NCBI RefSeq assembly: GCF_019670125.1
Contig: NZ_AP023033.1
Location: forward strand, 1,849,001-1,913,000
Source of the DNA: Agarivorans aestuarii
Lineage (GTDB): Bacteria > Pseudomonadota > Gammaproteobacteria > Enterobacterales > Celerinatantimonadaceae
Direction of reading: 5' to 3'
Length of the DNA: 64,000 bases
Shown here: positions 25,867 through 64,000 of the stretch, piece by piece
Numbering within the stretch: the first letter of the stretch is position 1
Layout of the letters: each line of letters opens with the position of its first letter
Made by a program: the position numbers and the translations under genes
The notes under the pieces: model-generated
What the model saw: only the letters and a program-made list of their open reading frames with translations
The model's database searches: none
What the model was told of the DNA's origin: nothing

Positions 25867-26775
25867 CTAGTTTGCAGCAAATTGCTTGATGCTAAAGTTA
25901 GCAAAGTCTGCATGTACACTTGGTTTAAGTTTGTTTGCTTCAACAAGTGAGCGATAGATTCCCCATTTAGGGCGAACAAAATGTTGTTCGCTCACACCTC
26001 GCCACATGTCTAGCTTGTCATCGCGAAAGTTAAATATTTCTGCTCCATCGCTTAAGCGAACGAGTGTTAAGCTGAACCAACCTAGTTCGCTGTATTTGGC
26101 TTGAACCTTGGCTTCTAGCCACTCTCCTTGAATCATGTCTCAATCTGCTCTTGCTAGAATACGAGTTTGGCGTAATGGACTATGTCTTACTTCTATGCCT
26201 GCTTTACCGTTACGAGTATTTCCGGTTAGCGTAATAATTGGCATTGAATCTTCACCGCCTACGGCTTTTAGTTGAAACAAATGGGTGAACTTGTTGGTAA
26301 CCTGCATGTCATTGCTAACGCGAAACTTCCAACTGTATGAGAAATGACGGCCTTGGTAGCCTTTTAGCGCGTCTGCTGAGCCGCCATAGACTTTAATTTC
26401 ATTGCGTTGCCTATCGATATACTTTCCTTTATTGCCATCTAAATCTCGGTGCAAAATAAAGCGAAAAAAAGGGCCGTATAGCTTGTCTGTGTACTCTTGT
26501 AAATGGAGTTCACCTTGGTGGTCGTTTTTAAAGCGATCTGGTGATTCTATGGCGTTCTTGCCAAACTGCTGACGAATTAGCTGGTAAGCGGATTGTCCGT
26601 AGTCTGGGCCATCTGCATCCAAGTTAGCGCTTGCTAAAATCTGTTTGTTTTCTGGATGCAGCGCTTGGCTCTGCAAATCATCGTTAAGTTTGCTGGAGCT
26701 ACAGGCAGTTAAGACAACCAACATCGCCGCAGATAGCCCGGTTTTTGTTAGCGTATTTACTTTTAGTTTCATCAC
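25867..26775 (-). pseudogene. Polysaccharide lyase-like lipoprotein gene interrupted by one in-frame TGA
   Basis: The minus-strand frame opens at 26775 with a lipoprotein signal (AMLVVLTACSSS) and runs 211 residues to a TGA at 26140-26142, then continues in the same frame for 90 residues to TAG/TAA near 25867. Joined, the about 302 codons make one coherent protein of the heparin-lyase-I-like Polysacc_lyase fold (PF14099 type): DLDGNKGKYIDRQRNEIKVYGG (key part DRQRNEIKVYGG), FTHLFQLKAVGG, then after the stop DMWRGV and RPKWGIYRSL. The stop replaces a residue just before DMIQGEWLEAKV, where a TGG Trp codon would need a single change. No shift is needed. Readthrough or a sequencing error remains possible. 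Confidence 0.8.
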
Positions 26776-26781
26776 AATATG

Positions 26782-27115
26782 CTACTGGGTCGCAATTTGA
26801 TTGCTTGCAGGCAAGTATTCTTTGAGCTTGAAAATGGCCAGTTGCCCGAGTTGTTGCTCAGATTTGGCTTTTAATGATTCGCTCGCTTGTTCATTGTGCT
26901 CTGCATCTTTGTGGGCTGAGTGGCCTAACTCTGCAATCTTGTGCCACTTGCTAGGTTGCGCACTTCGTCGGCGACTACTGCAAAACCTCGGTCTTGTTCG
27001 TCCGCTCTTGCTGCCTCAATGGCGGCATATTTGACCAATCAGCGCTACCGCAATCAGTAAAATAAATAGAATTGCAAAACCGGCTAGTGTTCTCATCACT
27101 ACAGAAATTTGCATG
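26782..27115 (-). pseudogene. Remnant of a methyl-accepting chemotaxis protein
   Basis: Minus strand. A good ribosome site (AAGGA) and ATG at 27115 open MQISVVMRTLAGFAILFILLIAVALIGQ, given by its key part VVMRTLAGFAILFILLI, the first membrane segment of a chemoreceptor. At about 27035 the frame jumps directly into AAIEAARADEQDRGFAVVADEVRNLA (key part RGFAVVADEVRNLA), the conserved signalling tip. A second shift near 26960 leads to KIAELGHSAHKDAEHNEQ and a normal receptor C-terminus ending NQIATQ and TAG at 26782. The sensing domain, second membrane span and most of the coiled coil are gone, so the gene is dead. Confidence 0.8.
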
Positions 27116-27549
27116 GGCCATCCTTAGCGTTTAGTAGAATTAAATCTCGTTCATTACGCAATATATTTTTGTTGCTATGGTAATACAATATAGCCGTGCC
27201 ATGGATGTGATTGGACTAACACTTATGTTGAGGGTGTGAACCGTAATAAGAGCTTGAGTAGTTATTATAGAAGCGGGTTACGGTTAGTCGTTCTGAAGTA
27301 ATAGCAGCAGAATTCATAAGTAGTGAATCAGCTAGGCAATTATCCTTTCGATTCTTTCAGCATTAGATTTAGTTGCTATTCATTTTGTAAATTGATGTGA
27401 GTCAAATTTACTTGTAAGTGGTCAGAGTAGTCTATAGCTTCAGCTATAACTCAAATTTCGTTTAGCTTAATAATTCTAATAATAATTGTTTGTAGTTTGT
27501 GTAACTAAACCTTGTCGTTTCTGTTTTACAGTTAGTTAAGGCTTATTAT
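27116..27549. other. Gene-free AT-rich region
   Basis: No convincing gene. It holds a copy of the TTGTATTACCA operator motif at 27178-27188 (listed separately) and an FNR-like half-perfect dyad TTGAT-GTGA-GTCAA at 27392-27405, 145 bases before the diguanylate cyclase gene. The cyclase promoter should lie here. Confidence 0.5.
27178..27188 (-). promoter_or_regulatory. Putative GntR/FadR-type operator upstream of the MCP remnant
   Basis: On the minus strand reads TTGTATTACCA, identical to the copy at 59680-59690 and matching the TnGTnnnACnA pattern. It lies 63 bases upstream of the chemoreceptor remnant start, in the orientation that would control the chemoreceptor and the polysaccharide lyase pseudogene. 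Confidence 0.45.
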
Positions 27550-59679: not shown

Positions 59680-59690
59680 TTGTATTACCA
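59680..59690 (+). promoter_or_regulatory. Putative GntR/FadR-type operator
   Basis: TTGTATTACCA, matching TnGTnnnACnA. In a gene-free region about 580 bases upstream of the LamG lipoprotein gene. Identical to the copy at 27178-27188. Confidence 0.45.
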
Positions 59691-60042
59691 ATCCTTGGGT
59701 GATTTGTAACTAAACCGGTATTTTCTCTCTGCTAGCGATACAAAATCAGACGCAGTTAGCGTACTTTTAAGTCAGCTGGTTTGAGATTTAACCCAGCTAT
59801 CACTGCTGCGATTAAGGGATTTAGTTATCGACGTTGCGCTGTTCAAGGTCGCAATCTATTAAGTAATTAAACAGTTATTTTATCTTGTAGCCTGCCTGTA
59901 ACATCGTTCCTCGCAATATCAATAATTTCATCGCTTACTCTGCTTTTATCTAGATTTTACAAGTTGTGAAGACAAAAAGATTAATCGCAAATAGTGCGAA
60001 GTCGGTCACTTTACAATCACAATCTTTTGCCACATTATAGTT

Positions 60043-60059
60043 TTGTATTACTAATACAA
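60043..60059 (+). promoter_or_regulatory. Putative GntR/FadR-type operator, perfect 17-bp palindrome
   Basis: TTGTATTA-C-TAATACAA. It contains TTGTATTACTA and, on the other strand, TTGTATTAGTA. Located about 205 bases before the LamG lipoprotein gene, immediately upstream of a leader frame. Confidence 0.6.
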
Positions 60060-60092
60060 TATGATCATTTTTACCGTAGTTAGGAGGTTTAA

Positions 60093-60122
60093 ATGGGAAC
60101 TTATCGCCGGCTAATCATTTAA
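60093..60122 (+). other. Nine-residue leader frame with strong ribosome site
   Basis: AGGAGGTTTAAATG followed by MGTYRRLII and TAA. The same 14-base ribosome site plus start (AGGAGGTTTAAATG) recurs at 60254-60267 before the LamG gene. It could be a leader peptide in the LamG mRNA or a remnant of a duplicated gene start. Confidence 0.35.
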
Positions 60123-60264
60123 GAGAGCGAATAGTCTGGAAAGGAAAAGTCATCTGGATGTATTTCGTTAAATAGGTTTCGGACTGTTTAACTACGGGTG
60201 ACCTTAGCAATATTAGTATTTTAACTATTACAATAATATTATTTATACCTACAAGGAGGTTTAA

Positions 60265-62115
60265 ATGAAACCGTCTAAGCTGCTGCTAATCCCTATGAGC
60301 ACAACTTTTATGTTTGGTTGTTTTGAGGCGCCAGAAGTATACGTTCCGCCACCAGAGCCTACTTATGCTATCGAAAACACCGATTGGAATATCTCTAGCG
60401 AAACCTCGAATATCACAACGTCGTCGACTGAATACGCACAAATCTATAAGTTTGTAGATGATGTGTTAACTATCTATAGCTACGATGAAACTAACGACCT
60501 TTATACCTACACGACTCAATCTTACACTGTTTCAGAAACCACTATTGCCTATGGTGATGTAGACGGTACATATGTAGTTGATGATGCAGGTGCTCTTGCA
60601 ATTACTTACACTTTAAATGGAGTGGACTATAACGACTCCGGAGCAGAAGTAACCGACGAAACTATTTTGGCGGCTATTGCTGATGCAGAAAAAGAACAAA
60701 CGCCAGGTGTAGAAGTTCCAACTGCTGACTATGAGTGGGACTTTGCCGCTATCGACGCTGATGCTGCACAGGGCGATAAAGTATTGCAAATGAGTAAAGC
60801 CGACAACAACCCAAGAGCGGTTGTTGATGGCGCTGTGGATACGAATGGTGCTGTATCTATTTCTCAGTCTACTGAATCTGGTTCTTACGGTTATCACTAC
60901 ACTACCATGGATAGCACCACAGACCCTCTTGCCGCTATTGATGGTGTAATTTCAATGGAAATTACTTTTAAAGCTGATAGTGCCAGCTTTAATGCTGATC
61001 TTGGCCAAGATCTACAGTTGTTAGAAAACACTGATAGCAATACCGGTTGGAAAGTAGTTGTAAATAAAAGCACTTTGATACCTGAACTACGTATCTACAA
61101 TGGCGATGGTTCTACCAGCATAAAAGCCACTTCGGTTGTAGAGGACGATACCTACATGCACCTTGTTGCTACTTACGATGGAACAACGGCCAGCATTTAC
61201 ATTAACGGGGAGCTCGAAGGTACTGCTGAAGTAACTGACTATATTGCAAATACTAAAGAAGGCGACAAAGTATACGTTGGTGGCGGTTCTAACAGCTCTC
61301 AGAAAAACTTAGCTGGCGCTATTGATAGTGCAGCATTTTGGCTAGAGACCCTTTCAGCTGAGGAAGTTGCAGAGCGTGCAAAAGACTTTGGCTTTGGGGA
61401 TACCGATCCTGAGACGCCTACAGGCCCAACCGCTGATTTTGAGTGGGACTTTAGCAGCGTTGATGCAGCACCTTCAGAAGGTGCAAAAGTTTTACAAATG
61501 AGTAAAGCTGATGACAATGCAAGAGCTGTGGTTGATGGCGCAGTAGAAGCTGATGCAGCGGTGTCTATAACTCAAACCTCTGCTGATGGCTTGTTTGGTT
61601 ATCACTACACGATAATGGATTCAACTACCGATCCTTTAGCCGCTATCGATGGCGTTATCTCAATGGAGTTGGTATACAAGTCAACTAGCGCCAGCTTCAA
61701 TGCAGACCTTGGCCAAGATTTACAGCTACTTGAAAATACCGATAGTAATAAAGGTTGGAAGGTTGTTGTAAACAAGAGCACCTTGATCCCAGAGTTACGT
61801 ATCTATAATGGTGACGGCTCAACATCAGTTAAAGCAACTTCAGTACTAGAAGATGATACCTATACTCACCTTATAGCCACATATGATGGTACTACAGCAA
61901 GCATATATGTAGATGGTGTACTTGAAGGTACTGCTGAAATCACAGATTACATTGCAAACACCAAAGAAGGTGACAAAGTGTACATCGGTGGTGGTTCTAA
62001 CAGTTCGCAGAAAAACCTTGATGGCGCAATTGATAATGCAGCGTTCTGGTTATCAACGCTAACAGCTGAAGAAGTTGCGGCGCGAGCAGAAGCATATGGC
62101 TTTACTGCTAACTAG
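60265..62115 (+). CDS. Lipoprotein with two tandem LamG domains
   Basis: 616 residues. Lipoprotein signal at the N-terminus (STTFMFGCF, cysteine at 19), a region of about 115 residues with no recognised domain, then two near-identical LamG modules: unit 1 from about residue 153 (DNA 60721), unit 2 from about residue 389 (DNA 61429). Shared words include MDSTTDPLAAIDGVISME, GWKVVVNKSTLIPELRIYNG and YIANTKEGDKVY. LamG (laminin G/ConA-like) modules often bind glycans; an outer-membrane oligosaccharide-binding role would fit the neighbouring porin and reductase. The strong ribosome site AGGAGG precedes the ATG. Confidence 0.85.
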   Translation: MKPSKLLLIPMSTTFMFGCFEAPEVYVPPPEPTYAIENTDWNISSETSNITTSSTEYAQIYKFVDDVLTIYSYDETNDLYTYTTQSYTVSETTIAYGDVDGTYVVDDAGALAITYTLNGVDYNDSGAEVTDETILAAIADAEKEQTPGVEVPTADYEWDFAAIDADAAQGDKVLQMSKADNNPRAVVDGAVDTNGAVSISQSTESGSYGYHYTTMDSTTDPLAAIDGVISMEITFKADSASFNADLGQDLQLLENTDSNTGWKVVVNKSTLIPELRIYNGDGSTSIKATSVVEDDTYMHLVATYDGTTASIYINGELEGTAEVTDYIANTKEGDKVYVGGGSNSSQKNLAGAIDSAAFWLETLSAEEVAERAKDFGFGDTDPETPTGPTADFEWDFSSVDAAPSEGAKVLQMSKADDNARAVVDGAVEADAAVSITQTSADGLFGYHYTIMDSTTDPLAAIDGVISMELVYKSTSASFNADLGQDLQLLENTDSNKGWKVVVNKSTLIPELRIYNGDGSTSVKATSVLEDDTYTHLIATYDGTTASIYVDGVLEGTAEITDYIANTKEGDKVYIGGGSNSSQKNLDGAIDNAAFWLSTLTAEEVAARAEAYGFTAN

Positions 62116-62127
62116 TTGTTGCTAATC

Positions 62128-62163
62128 AATAAACCCTCACTACTTAGTATGAGAGGGTTTATT
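62128..62163. terminator. Hairpin after the LamG gene
   Basis: AATAAACCCTC (62128-62138) pairs with GAGGGTTTATT (62153-62163); 14-base loop. The T content of the right arm is modest, so it is a probable but not certain terminator. Confidence 0.65.
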
Positions 62164-62295
62164 AAAAGTTCTACTTCGGTGTTATACAACCACTCACTAT
62201 TGCTCAATTAGATATAAATGGAAACATCGCCGACCAGCAAGCTAGTTGAGATGCAATAGTCGAGAATTTGTAAATCGCTAACAATAGCAGTTCTA

Positions 62296-62327
62296 AAATG
62301 CACCTTACTATGGTGCATTTTTCTTTT
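62296..62327 (+). terminator. Second rho-independent terminator, without an upstream gene
   Basis: AAATGCACC (62296-62304), loop TTACTAT, GGTGCATTT (62312-62320), then more T. It lies 130 bases after the first hairpin and 310 bases before the KdgM start. Confidence 0.8.
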
Positions 62328-62554
62328 CCGTAAACGCTCTTCTAAAAGTAAATGTGTCGCCTTCGAAGGTTTACATGCTATCAAGACGTTCTAACACTTC
62401 GTAAAGCAATATAGCTACACCCTAAGTTAGCAATGTCGCCCACCTGCTTACTTGCCATATTATATTTTTCATTTGAATGGATTGTTGAATTAATGGACTG
62501 TAAAAAGTGATCCGTTAGACGTTTTGTTTCAACAGCAATGCTGATGATCACATT

Positions 62555-62602
62555 TTGAACGGTTTAGCCTACACAATGTATTAAAATGATATTGTAATAC
62601 AA
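62555..62602 (+). promoter_or_regulatory. Promoter and operator of the KdgM porin gene
   Basis: TTGAAC (62555-62560), 18-bp spacer, TATTAA (62579-62584), giving a start near 62591. The palindromic operator TTGTA-A-TACAA (62592-62602) sits on the predicted start site, where a bound repressor would block polymerase. Outer arms ACACAAT and ATTGTGT (62571-62577, 62606-62612) flank the site. Confidence 0.6.
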
Positions 62603-62631
62603 ATTATTGTGTTCAATGTAGAGTTATAAAC

Positions 62632-63312
62632 ATGAAATCATACAGTCTAGCAATGTTACTTAGTGGTGGTTGTTTACTGAGTGCGAACGTTCTCGCGACT
62701 TCAGTAGACTTTCGCCATGAGTACAAAAGTGATACCAAGCAGCATGCTAGCCGAGTAAAGATGGCCCATACCTTTGAAAATAATTTCTCTATGGCTTTAG
62801 AGCTTAAATTTAAAGGAGAAGAGGGCAAATTCATGGAAGACTTACAATCAAACGGATCTGAAATCGACCTTGGCTACCGCTATAAAATTAACGATCAATG
62901 GGCGCTAATTCCTGGTATGCCTATAGAGTTTGGTCAATCCGGTGCTACCTACAAACCGCAGCTCCGATTAACCTACACCCCAGAAAAGGTAAAGGGATTG
63001 TCATTAAGTGGCCGTTACCGACTTGACGTAAAACCGGGAGAAGATATTAAGAAGTATCGCCATCGCTATACCGCCAACATTGGATATAAGTATCAGCAAT
63101 GGACCTTTGGTCTAGAGGGTAACTATTACTATTCCGACAATTCTGAATATCACCTCTATAACAATGGCCGAACTAATTATGAAAACAACTTTACCATTCA
63201 TTACAGCATGGGCAGTTGGACGCCGTGGTTAGAGTTTGGTGATGTTTCAATTTCCGATCAATCTAGCCAACGAGAGTTAAGAAGCCGCATAGGCCTACGC
63301 TATAACTTCTAA
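62632..63312 (+). CDS. kdgM: KdgM-family oligosaccharide-specific porin
   Basis: 226 residues. Signal peptide ends NVLA (LSGGCLLSANVLA), followed by TSVDFRHEYKSDTKQHASRVKMAH, whose DFRHEYKSDTKQHASRVKMA is the KdgM-family N-terminus. KdgM/NanC proteins are 12-strand monomeric barrels that pass acidic oligosaccharides (oligogalacturonate, alginate or sialic-acid oligomers) across the outer membrane. The C-terminus ends RIGLRYNF with a terminal phenylalanine. Next gene encodes an SDR reductase, consistent with import and catabolism of uronic-acid oligomers. Confidence 0.9.
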   Translation: MKSYSLAMLLSGGCLLSANVLATSVDFRHEYKSDTKQHASRVKMAHTFENNFSMALELKFKGEEGKFMEDLQSNGSEIDLGYRYKINDQWALIPGMPIEFGQSGATYKPQLRLTYTPEKVKGLSLSGRYRLDVKPGEDIKKYRHRYTANIGYKYQQWTFGLEGNYYYSDNSEYHLYNNGRTNYENNFTIHYSMGSWTPWLEFGDVSISDQSSQRELRSRIGLRYNF

Positions 63313-63328
63313 AGTGTGATCTGCGCAT

Positions 63329-63370
63329 TTGTATTACAAATTATCAAGGTGTAATCTATTTGTATTACTA
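63329..63370 (+). promoter_or_regulatory. Pair of GntR/FadR-type operators before the SDR gene
   Basis: TTGTATTACAA (63329-63339, a perfect palindrome) and TTGTATTACTA (63360-63370). Centre-to-centre distance is 31 bp, about three helical turns, so two dimers could bind on one face. They lie 55-90 bases before the SDR start. Confidence 0.6.
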
Positions 63371-63422: not shown

Positions 63423-64000
63423 ATGTCTAATAAAGTTGCATTAATTACCGGAGCAACCGGTGGAATTGGTTTTCAAGTGGCAAAACGCTTAGGTGAAGAC
63501 GGCTATACCGTTGTTTTGAACGGTATCGAAGATGAAGCCGGCGCAGCACGCGTTGCTCAATTACAAGAATTAGGTATTGAAGCAGAATACTATAGCTTTG
63601 ACGTTACTGATGAAGTAGCTGTTACCAGCAACGTGACTAGAATTGGTGAAAAGTTTGGCAAAATTGACGTGCTGGTAAACAACGCCGGTGGCTTAGGCGG
63701 TCGTAGCCCAATGGAAGAAATGACCACGGAGTTCTACCGTTTTGTAATGGCCCTAAATTTAGATAGTGCATTCTTTGTATCGCGTGCTGCAATTCCATTC
63801 TTGAAGAAAGGTGAAAATGCTTCAATCATTAATTTCACCTCAAATGCAGGTTGGAATGCCGGTGGTCCGGGCGCAGGCATTTATGGTGTTTCAAAGGGTG
63901 CTGTACATACTTTAACTCGCGCTTTAGCCAAAGAGCTAGCGCCAGCGGGTATTCGTGTTAACGCAGTATCTCCTGGTACTATTGATACGCCATTCCACGC
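63423..64000 (+). CDS. SDR-family NAD(P)-dependent oxidoreductase, partial
   Basis: 192 residues to the right edge, no stop reached. Rossmann motif TGATGGIG (T9-G16), NNAGG after the third strand, and the catalytic Ser/Tyr/Lys region with NFTSNAGWN, Y154 and K158 (YGVSK). This is a classical SDR. Beside a KdgM porin and shared operators, a role as a uronate reductase, such as KduD or the DEH reductase of alginate breakdown, is likely but the substrate is inferred from context. GAGAG precedes the ATG. Confidence 0.85.
   Translation, partial: MSNKVALITGATGGIGFQVAKRLGEDGYTVVLNGIEDEAGAARVAQLQELGIEAEYYSFDVTDEVAVTSNVTRIGEKFGKIDVLVNNAGGLGGRSPMEEMTTEFYRFVMALNLDSAFFVSRAAIPFLKKGENASIINFTSNAGWNAGGPGAGIYGVSKGAVHTLTRALAKELAPAGIRVNAVSPGTIDTPFH

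Follow-up and report, generated by a model that had tools for sequence, protein, structure and literature searches.

Which protein reads the short palindromes that precede several genes at the right end of a 64,000-nt stretch of the Agarivorans aestuarii genome (GCF_019670125.1; NZ_AP023033.1, positions 1,849,001 to 1,913,000 of the forward strand; hereafter, the window), and which genes would it control? An original prediction placed six operators of the GntR/FadR type around uronate-type genes and, 32 kb away, beside a dead chemoreceptor-lyase locus, and suggested that a single regulator could account for all of them. We propose, with a probability of about 80%, that the sites are operators of an AlgR-like repressor of the GntR/FadR subfamily (with an FCD domain), which would control the alginate utilization locus (AUL) together with unlinked genes and would be released by a catabolite.

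An exact search for the pattern TTGTATTACNA in the window returned all six predicted sites, at 59680 (+), 60043 (+), 62592 (-), 63329 (+), 63360 (+), and 27178 (-). The site at 60043 is indeed a 17-bp palindrome, and that at 62592, which had been thought to overlie the KdgM start, ends 29 bp upstream of the ATG. Five matches fall in the 1,844 bases of the three rightmost intergenic gaps, compared with a Markov-shuffle mean of 0.0185, and none of 2,000 shuffles equaled this number. With up to one mismatch, the count for the whole window is 15 (mean of shuffles, 6.54; none of 100 reached 15). In the whole 4.69-Mb genome (G000), the excess in number over the reversed pattern is weak (22 versus 13), but the placement is distinctive: as assigned with a simple open reading frame (ORF) caller, 16 of the 22 matches are intergenic, compared with 1 of the 13 reversed controls (Fisher p = 0.0002), so the sites are commoner between genes than within them. 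Since genome-wide counting alone is uninformative, we relied on position and conservation.

The locus at the right end is an AUL, inside which the window ends. It groups oligoalginate lyase, porin, transporter, and 2-keto-3-deoxygluconate (KDG)-pathway genes with a regulator gene, in the following order: a gene that we take to be LysR type, a LamG lipoprotein, a KdgM porin, a short-chain dehydrogenase/reductase (SDR), the GntR/FCD regulator, DUF4336, PLA1, and two PL17-type oligoalginate lyases, followed on the opposite strand by a sodium symporter of the SSS family, a small cupin-like protein (presumably KdgF), a PfkB kinase (labeled KdgK from its PfkB match only), and KdgA. One of the PL17-type lyases matches PDB entry 7bjt (E = 1e-148). 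The SDR is only a probable reductase of 4-deoxy-L-erythro-5-hexoseulose uronate (DEH), because many solved SDRs match it, DEH reductases among them. Further sites occur in the lyase/symporter gap (L023:13866 and 14068), and six PL7 lyase genes are found elsewhere in the genome. The PL17 lyases thus narrow the predicted uronate-type function to alginate specifically, rather than uronates in general.

The GntR-family gene sought in the flanking locus (C1:1913465-1914187) begins 465 bp past the window edge. Its product combines an N-terminal GntR helix-turn-helix (HTH) domain (PF00392; E = 8e-17) with a C-terminal FCD domain (PF07729; E = 3e-22), the architecture of the FadR subfamily, and its closest solved relative is 7c7e (E = 5e-28), which we take to be DgoR. 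It scored 66.9 bits against the NCBIfam PdhR equivalog, far below the cutoff of 330, compared with 398.6 for the true PdhR of this genome. We collected the best 80 of 555 stretches encoding relatives of the regulator, divided them into 67 marine and 13 enterobacterial loci, and searched their intergenic DNA, without a preset motif, for 5-mer palindromes with gaps of 0 to 8. The top palindrome, TTGTA-N1-TACAA, occurred in 42 of the 67 marine loci and conforms to the FadR-subfamily pattern TnGTnnnACnA; the runner-up, an AT-rich palindrome, occurred in 20 loci, and permuted half-sites averaged 0.6. Exact sites in the marine loci number 63 and one-mismatch sites 90, compared with 1.2 and 24.1, respectively, in shuffles; the genes next to sites include those for SSS, PL17, KdgF, GntR, KdgM, and SDR, and Shewanella homologues of the regulator carry the motif as well. 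A same-frame match was present in 12 of the 13 enterobacterial loci, under a looser pattern that allows chance matches and with one match within a called ORF.

A second GntR gene (C1:2579296-2580000) bears on whether a single regulator is at work. The two products are 74% identical, with very similar HTH domains, and the second locus has TTGTAATACAT sites near a second SSS gene and its own GntR gene; alginate induces two of the three GntR genes in the Vibrio sp. C42 AUL, according to the accessible part of that report (PMC13390454). It is conceivable, although we consider it doubtful, that the second protein or both paralogues bind the operators, which would make this a two-regulator regulon; the best sites of the second locus end in ACAT, not ACAA, and the specificities may differ. 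What stands of the single-regulator prediction is therefore a GntR-type regulon, not its singleness. The second GntR/SSS/SDR group lies in L054 (C1:2568000-2587999), and similar groups occur in G001, G003, G004, and G006.

Five sister genomes (G001, G003, G004, G005, and G006), which with G000 made six aligned genomes, have sites at matching promoters, namely those of LamG, KdgM, SDR, PL17, and SSS. The KdgM, first SDR, PL17a, and SSS sites were found in all six. Divergence of the flanks is clearest at the KdgM and PL17a sites. The five LamG-bearing genomes (G001, G003, G004, G006, and the window) share an identical LamG palindrome, whose flank is conserved too. Four of the six genomes (the window, G001, G006, and, as an ACCA form, G003) retain the second SDR site, which is degenerate in G004 and G005. 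The site at 59680 has a TTTGTATTACCA/ACTA counterpart at equal distance in G001, G003, and G004; none was listed in G006. As read from these comparisons, gene content, motif, motif conservation, and the association of the motif with this clade of regulators are established; we infer binding, the sign of control, the effector, and the role of CRP.

The isolated site at 27178 stands before the remains of a receptor-lyase operon. Four relatives (G001, G003, G004, and G006) have an intact operon, each with TTGTAWTACCATAA (TTGTAWTACCA) at -76/-77, and none of 10 paralogous receptor genes has a site with up to one mismatch. The intact lyase belongs to PF14099, barely above the cutoff. Of 197 genomes from the order, 10 have the sensing part of the receptor, with close matches (72 to 100%) only in the four genomes with the intact operon; the others are paralogues within the family (28 to 37%). 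Among 12 family genomes (PL17 called at E <= 1e-60), the receptor-lyase locus occurs in five of the seven PL17-bearing members and in none of the five PL17-less members (p = 0.027, not corrected for kinship). The excess of only 22 over 13 means that some exact matches in the genome must be due to chance; that 27178 is one of these, beside a dead gene and never of consequence, is highly improbable given its recurrence at one distance in all four intact operons and its absence from the paralogues.

The half-sites at this locus complicate the assignment. Every receptor-operon site is a hybrid in which one half is ACCA, the PdhR type, and TGGTnnnACCA adjoins pdhR in 12 of 12 family genomes. Because 27178 and 59680 each have one such half, which none of the 90 one-mismatch marine sites has, these two sites could be under PdhR or joint control. 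That some sites, chiefly these two, belong to the pyruvate-responsive PdhR or to another FadR-type reader of TnGTnnnACnA is nevertheless unlikely, since 60043, 62592, 63329, and 63360 lack the ACCA half, ACCA and ACTA interchange within the genus at the second SDR site (G003 versus G000), and the receptor-lyase locus tracks PL17. We favor, with some reserve, control of the receptor operon, at present or in the past, by the alginate GntR, and the sequence comparisons thus support the predicted former link of the regulator to the receptor and lyase genes, with the hybrid half as a reservation. At pdhR itself, a second site of the TTTGTnnnACAA type was observed at -145 in six PL17-bearing members of the genus (L181:1496-1506; C1:809095), and the PL17-less G002 has TGGTnnnACCA at -160 in its place; this second site may link alginate and pyruvate control. 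A GH16-type gene precedes the intact operon in G001, G004, and G006 (L226:4451-5233, L227:3202-3984, and L228:4130-5020) and is missing at that place in G003 and in the window. Among the 80 regulator loci, a receptor gene is present in three, all from Vibrio, with a dissimilar sensing part and no site of its own nearby.

Other targets were sought among the exact TTGTANTACAA sites of seven genomes of the genus. Of 77 such sites, 58 were examined (33 intergenic and 25 genic, as assigned with a simple ORF caller; one in an AUL); 17 of the remaining 19 lie within AUL loci, and 2 were outside the listing. The repeated intergenic targets are PL7 lyase genes, a MATE transporter gene, and the gap between adhE and oppA. 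One PL7 gene has a site at -41/-42 in four genomes. The MATE gene (called at E <= 1e-100) and PL17 co-occur in the same 7 of the 12 family genomes, the other 5 having neither (p = 0.001, not corrected for kinship), although the MATE of G007 shows only 42% identity. The site before the MATE gene is exact at -64 in G000, G001, G003, and G006 and has one mismatch in G004 (-126) and two in G005 (-127). In other genera, 43 of the 80 loci, all of them marine, have a MATE gene with 59 to 72% identity close to the regulator. Upstream of the acetate transporter gene satP, all six PL17-bearing members of the genus carry a TnGTnnnACnA site at -129/-130 (one exact, four with one mismatch, and one with two), and no such site was found in G002, G008, and G009, all without PL17.

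Some further sites are weak or unexplained. A TRAP dctP gene has a site in three of the five genomes that carry it, TTTTGTAATACAAAAG lies between the adhE-like and oppA-like genes (L008:1501; C1:1469692), with sites also in G004, G005, and G006, and other far sites (L006, L007, L017, L018, L019, and L020) were judged by position and neighbors, that in L020 also with Pfam.

Several observations weigh against one alginate repressor governing all these genes. The exact palindrome shows no clear excess in number across the seven genomes of the genus (77 versus 67 reversed); just three of the six PL7 genes in this genome have a site with up to one mismatch within 400 bp, and one of these three sites is at -241; and the adhE/oppA gap holds conserved sites with no clear link to alginate. 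In the PL17-bearing G007, the distant MATE gene has only two-mismatch matches and the satP site is absent. Of the 43 regulator-adjacent MATE genes in other genera, only 3 have their own site (<=1 mismatch, within 350 bp); the other 40 would be read together with a neighboring gene. To these are added the ACCA halves at 27178 and 59680 and the presence of the very similar second GntR.

Under the regulon that we propose, a repressor encoded in the AUL would read TTGTA-N-TACAA as a dimer (fuller form, ATTTGTATTACAAAT) and hold down three sets of genes: (i) those of the AUL, i.e., the LamG lipoprotein, KdgM porin, SDR, PL17 lyase, sodium symporter, and KDG-pathway genes; (ii) unlinked genes, i.e., some PL7 lyase genes, the MATE transporter gene, and satP; and (iii) in relatives, the chemoreceptor-lyase operon, which is decayed in the present genome. 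The repressor would be released by an intracellular product of alginate degradation, for which the pathway leads us to guess at DEH or KDG. Repression with release is suggested by the regulator family and by the KdgM, SDR, and receptor sites, which lie close before their genes. At some promoters, CRP may exert additional catabolite control. When ten promoter regions were scored against 500 shuffles each, CRP-like boxes were strong at the box shared by PL17a and SSS (one mismatch; 3/500 shuffles as good) and at the receptor, where the box is similar in five aligned genomes, and moderate at LamG (two mismatches; 43/500); at the remaining promoters, they were no better than shuffles. The features of the window are listed in Table 1.

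Table 1. Predicted operators and associated features in the window
Feature	Positions	Strand	Remark
Operator-like site TTGTATTACCA, hybrid (one ACCA half)	59680..59690	+	575 bp upstream of LamG
Predicted LamG operator, 17-bp palindrome TTGTATTACTAATACAA	60043..60059	.	8+1+8 palindrome
Predicted KdgM operator TTGTAATACAA (on + strand)	62592..62602	.	Pattern match
Predicted SDR operator 1, TTGTATTACAA within ATTTGTATTACAAAT	63329..63339	.	Pattern match
Predicted SDR operator 2, TTGTATTACTA	63360..63370	+	Pattern match
Operator-like site TTGTATTACCA, hybrid (one ACCA half), upstream of dead receptor-lyase operon	27178..27188	-	
CRP-like box adjoining the 27178 site	27206..27221	-	1 mismatch to TGTGA-N6-TCACA; 0/500 shuffles as good
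Receptor relic (residues 1-30, 512-541, and 622-674 of a 674-residue receptor)	26785..27114	-	
Broken polysaccharide lyase gene, one in-frame stop	25867..26775	-	Intact relative, PF14099
LamG-type lipoprotein, two Laminin_G_3 repeats	60265..62115	+	
KdgM-family porin	62632..63312	+	PF06178, E = 5e-39
SDR, probable DEH reductase	63423..64000, running past the window (L023:4423-5178)	+	

The LamG protein may bind alginate. One LamG repeat had no PDB match at E = 0.001, and its AlphaFold model, with a mean pLDDT of 35, was set aside rather than searched for fold matches. Where the window has the LamG lipoprotein gene, G005 has one for a PL7 alginate lyase (L045:7072-7968).

GntR-type alginate regulons are already known. 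In the accessible text, AlgR* is predicted to regulate alginate use locally, with an alginate/hexuronate regulon predicted in one Shewanella genome (PMC2996990, PMC3223726); it is a likeness from a marine gammaproteobacterium and perhaps of the same orthologous group, but the comparison is by description, without family or motif, and that text describes no MATE or receptor member. As far as its available description goes, the AUL of Vibrio sp. C42 combines GntR-1 and GntR-2, with no operator described for them, with PL, porin, SSS, dehR, kdgF, kdgK, and eda genes, and includes MATE and methyl-accepting chemotaxis genes (PMC13390454), both of which are unlinked to the AUL here. AusR of Zobellia galactanivorans is, in the portion of a review at hand, a GntR-family repressor of alginate genes freed by alginate breakdown products (PMC8286568), but it belongs to a flavobacterial polysaccharide utilization locus and is likened by description, not by sequence or motif. 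DgoR and PdhR, of the FadR subfamily, share the GntR HTH plus FCD architecture and, in the excerpt available, sites with GT and AC three bases apart (PMC4494728); the pdhR site of the family is TGGTnnnACCA, in contrast to TTGTANTACAA here. Within the open-licence literature (i.e., no subscription papers and no RegPrecise), most of it judged from search entries rather than full text, we found no report of TTGTANTACAA as an alginate operator and none tying a MATE or receptor gene to it, and the unlinked MATE and receptor members seem to be unreported there.

The palindrome offers one testable operator for alginate catabolism common to Vibrio, Shewanella, Agarivorans-like, and Marinomonas-type bacteria, and it ties unlinked genes to the alginate pathway. 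The MATE and chemotaxis genes were deemed not apparently alginate related in the available text on Vibrio sp. C42 (PMC13390454); here, MATE is linked to alginate by operator and occurrence. Vibrio cyclitrophicus swims toward polymeric alginate, the receptor not being named in the part of the report available (PMC11493405), and a concrete candidate for such sensing in this genus is a receptor governed by the alginate regulator. Tentatively, the alginate repressor may run a foraging program that extends beyond catabolism to a dedicated chemoreceptor and its accompanying lyase, an acetate transporter, and a MATE exporter that alginate users have retained. If so, alginate or its products would be what the receptor senses, the MATE protein would export a toxic or surplus catabolite, and the window would represent a lineage that is without the sensing arm, its operator still present.

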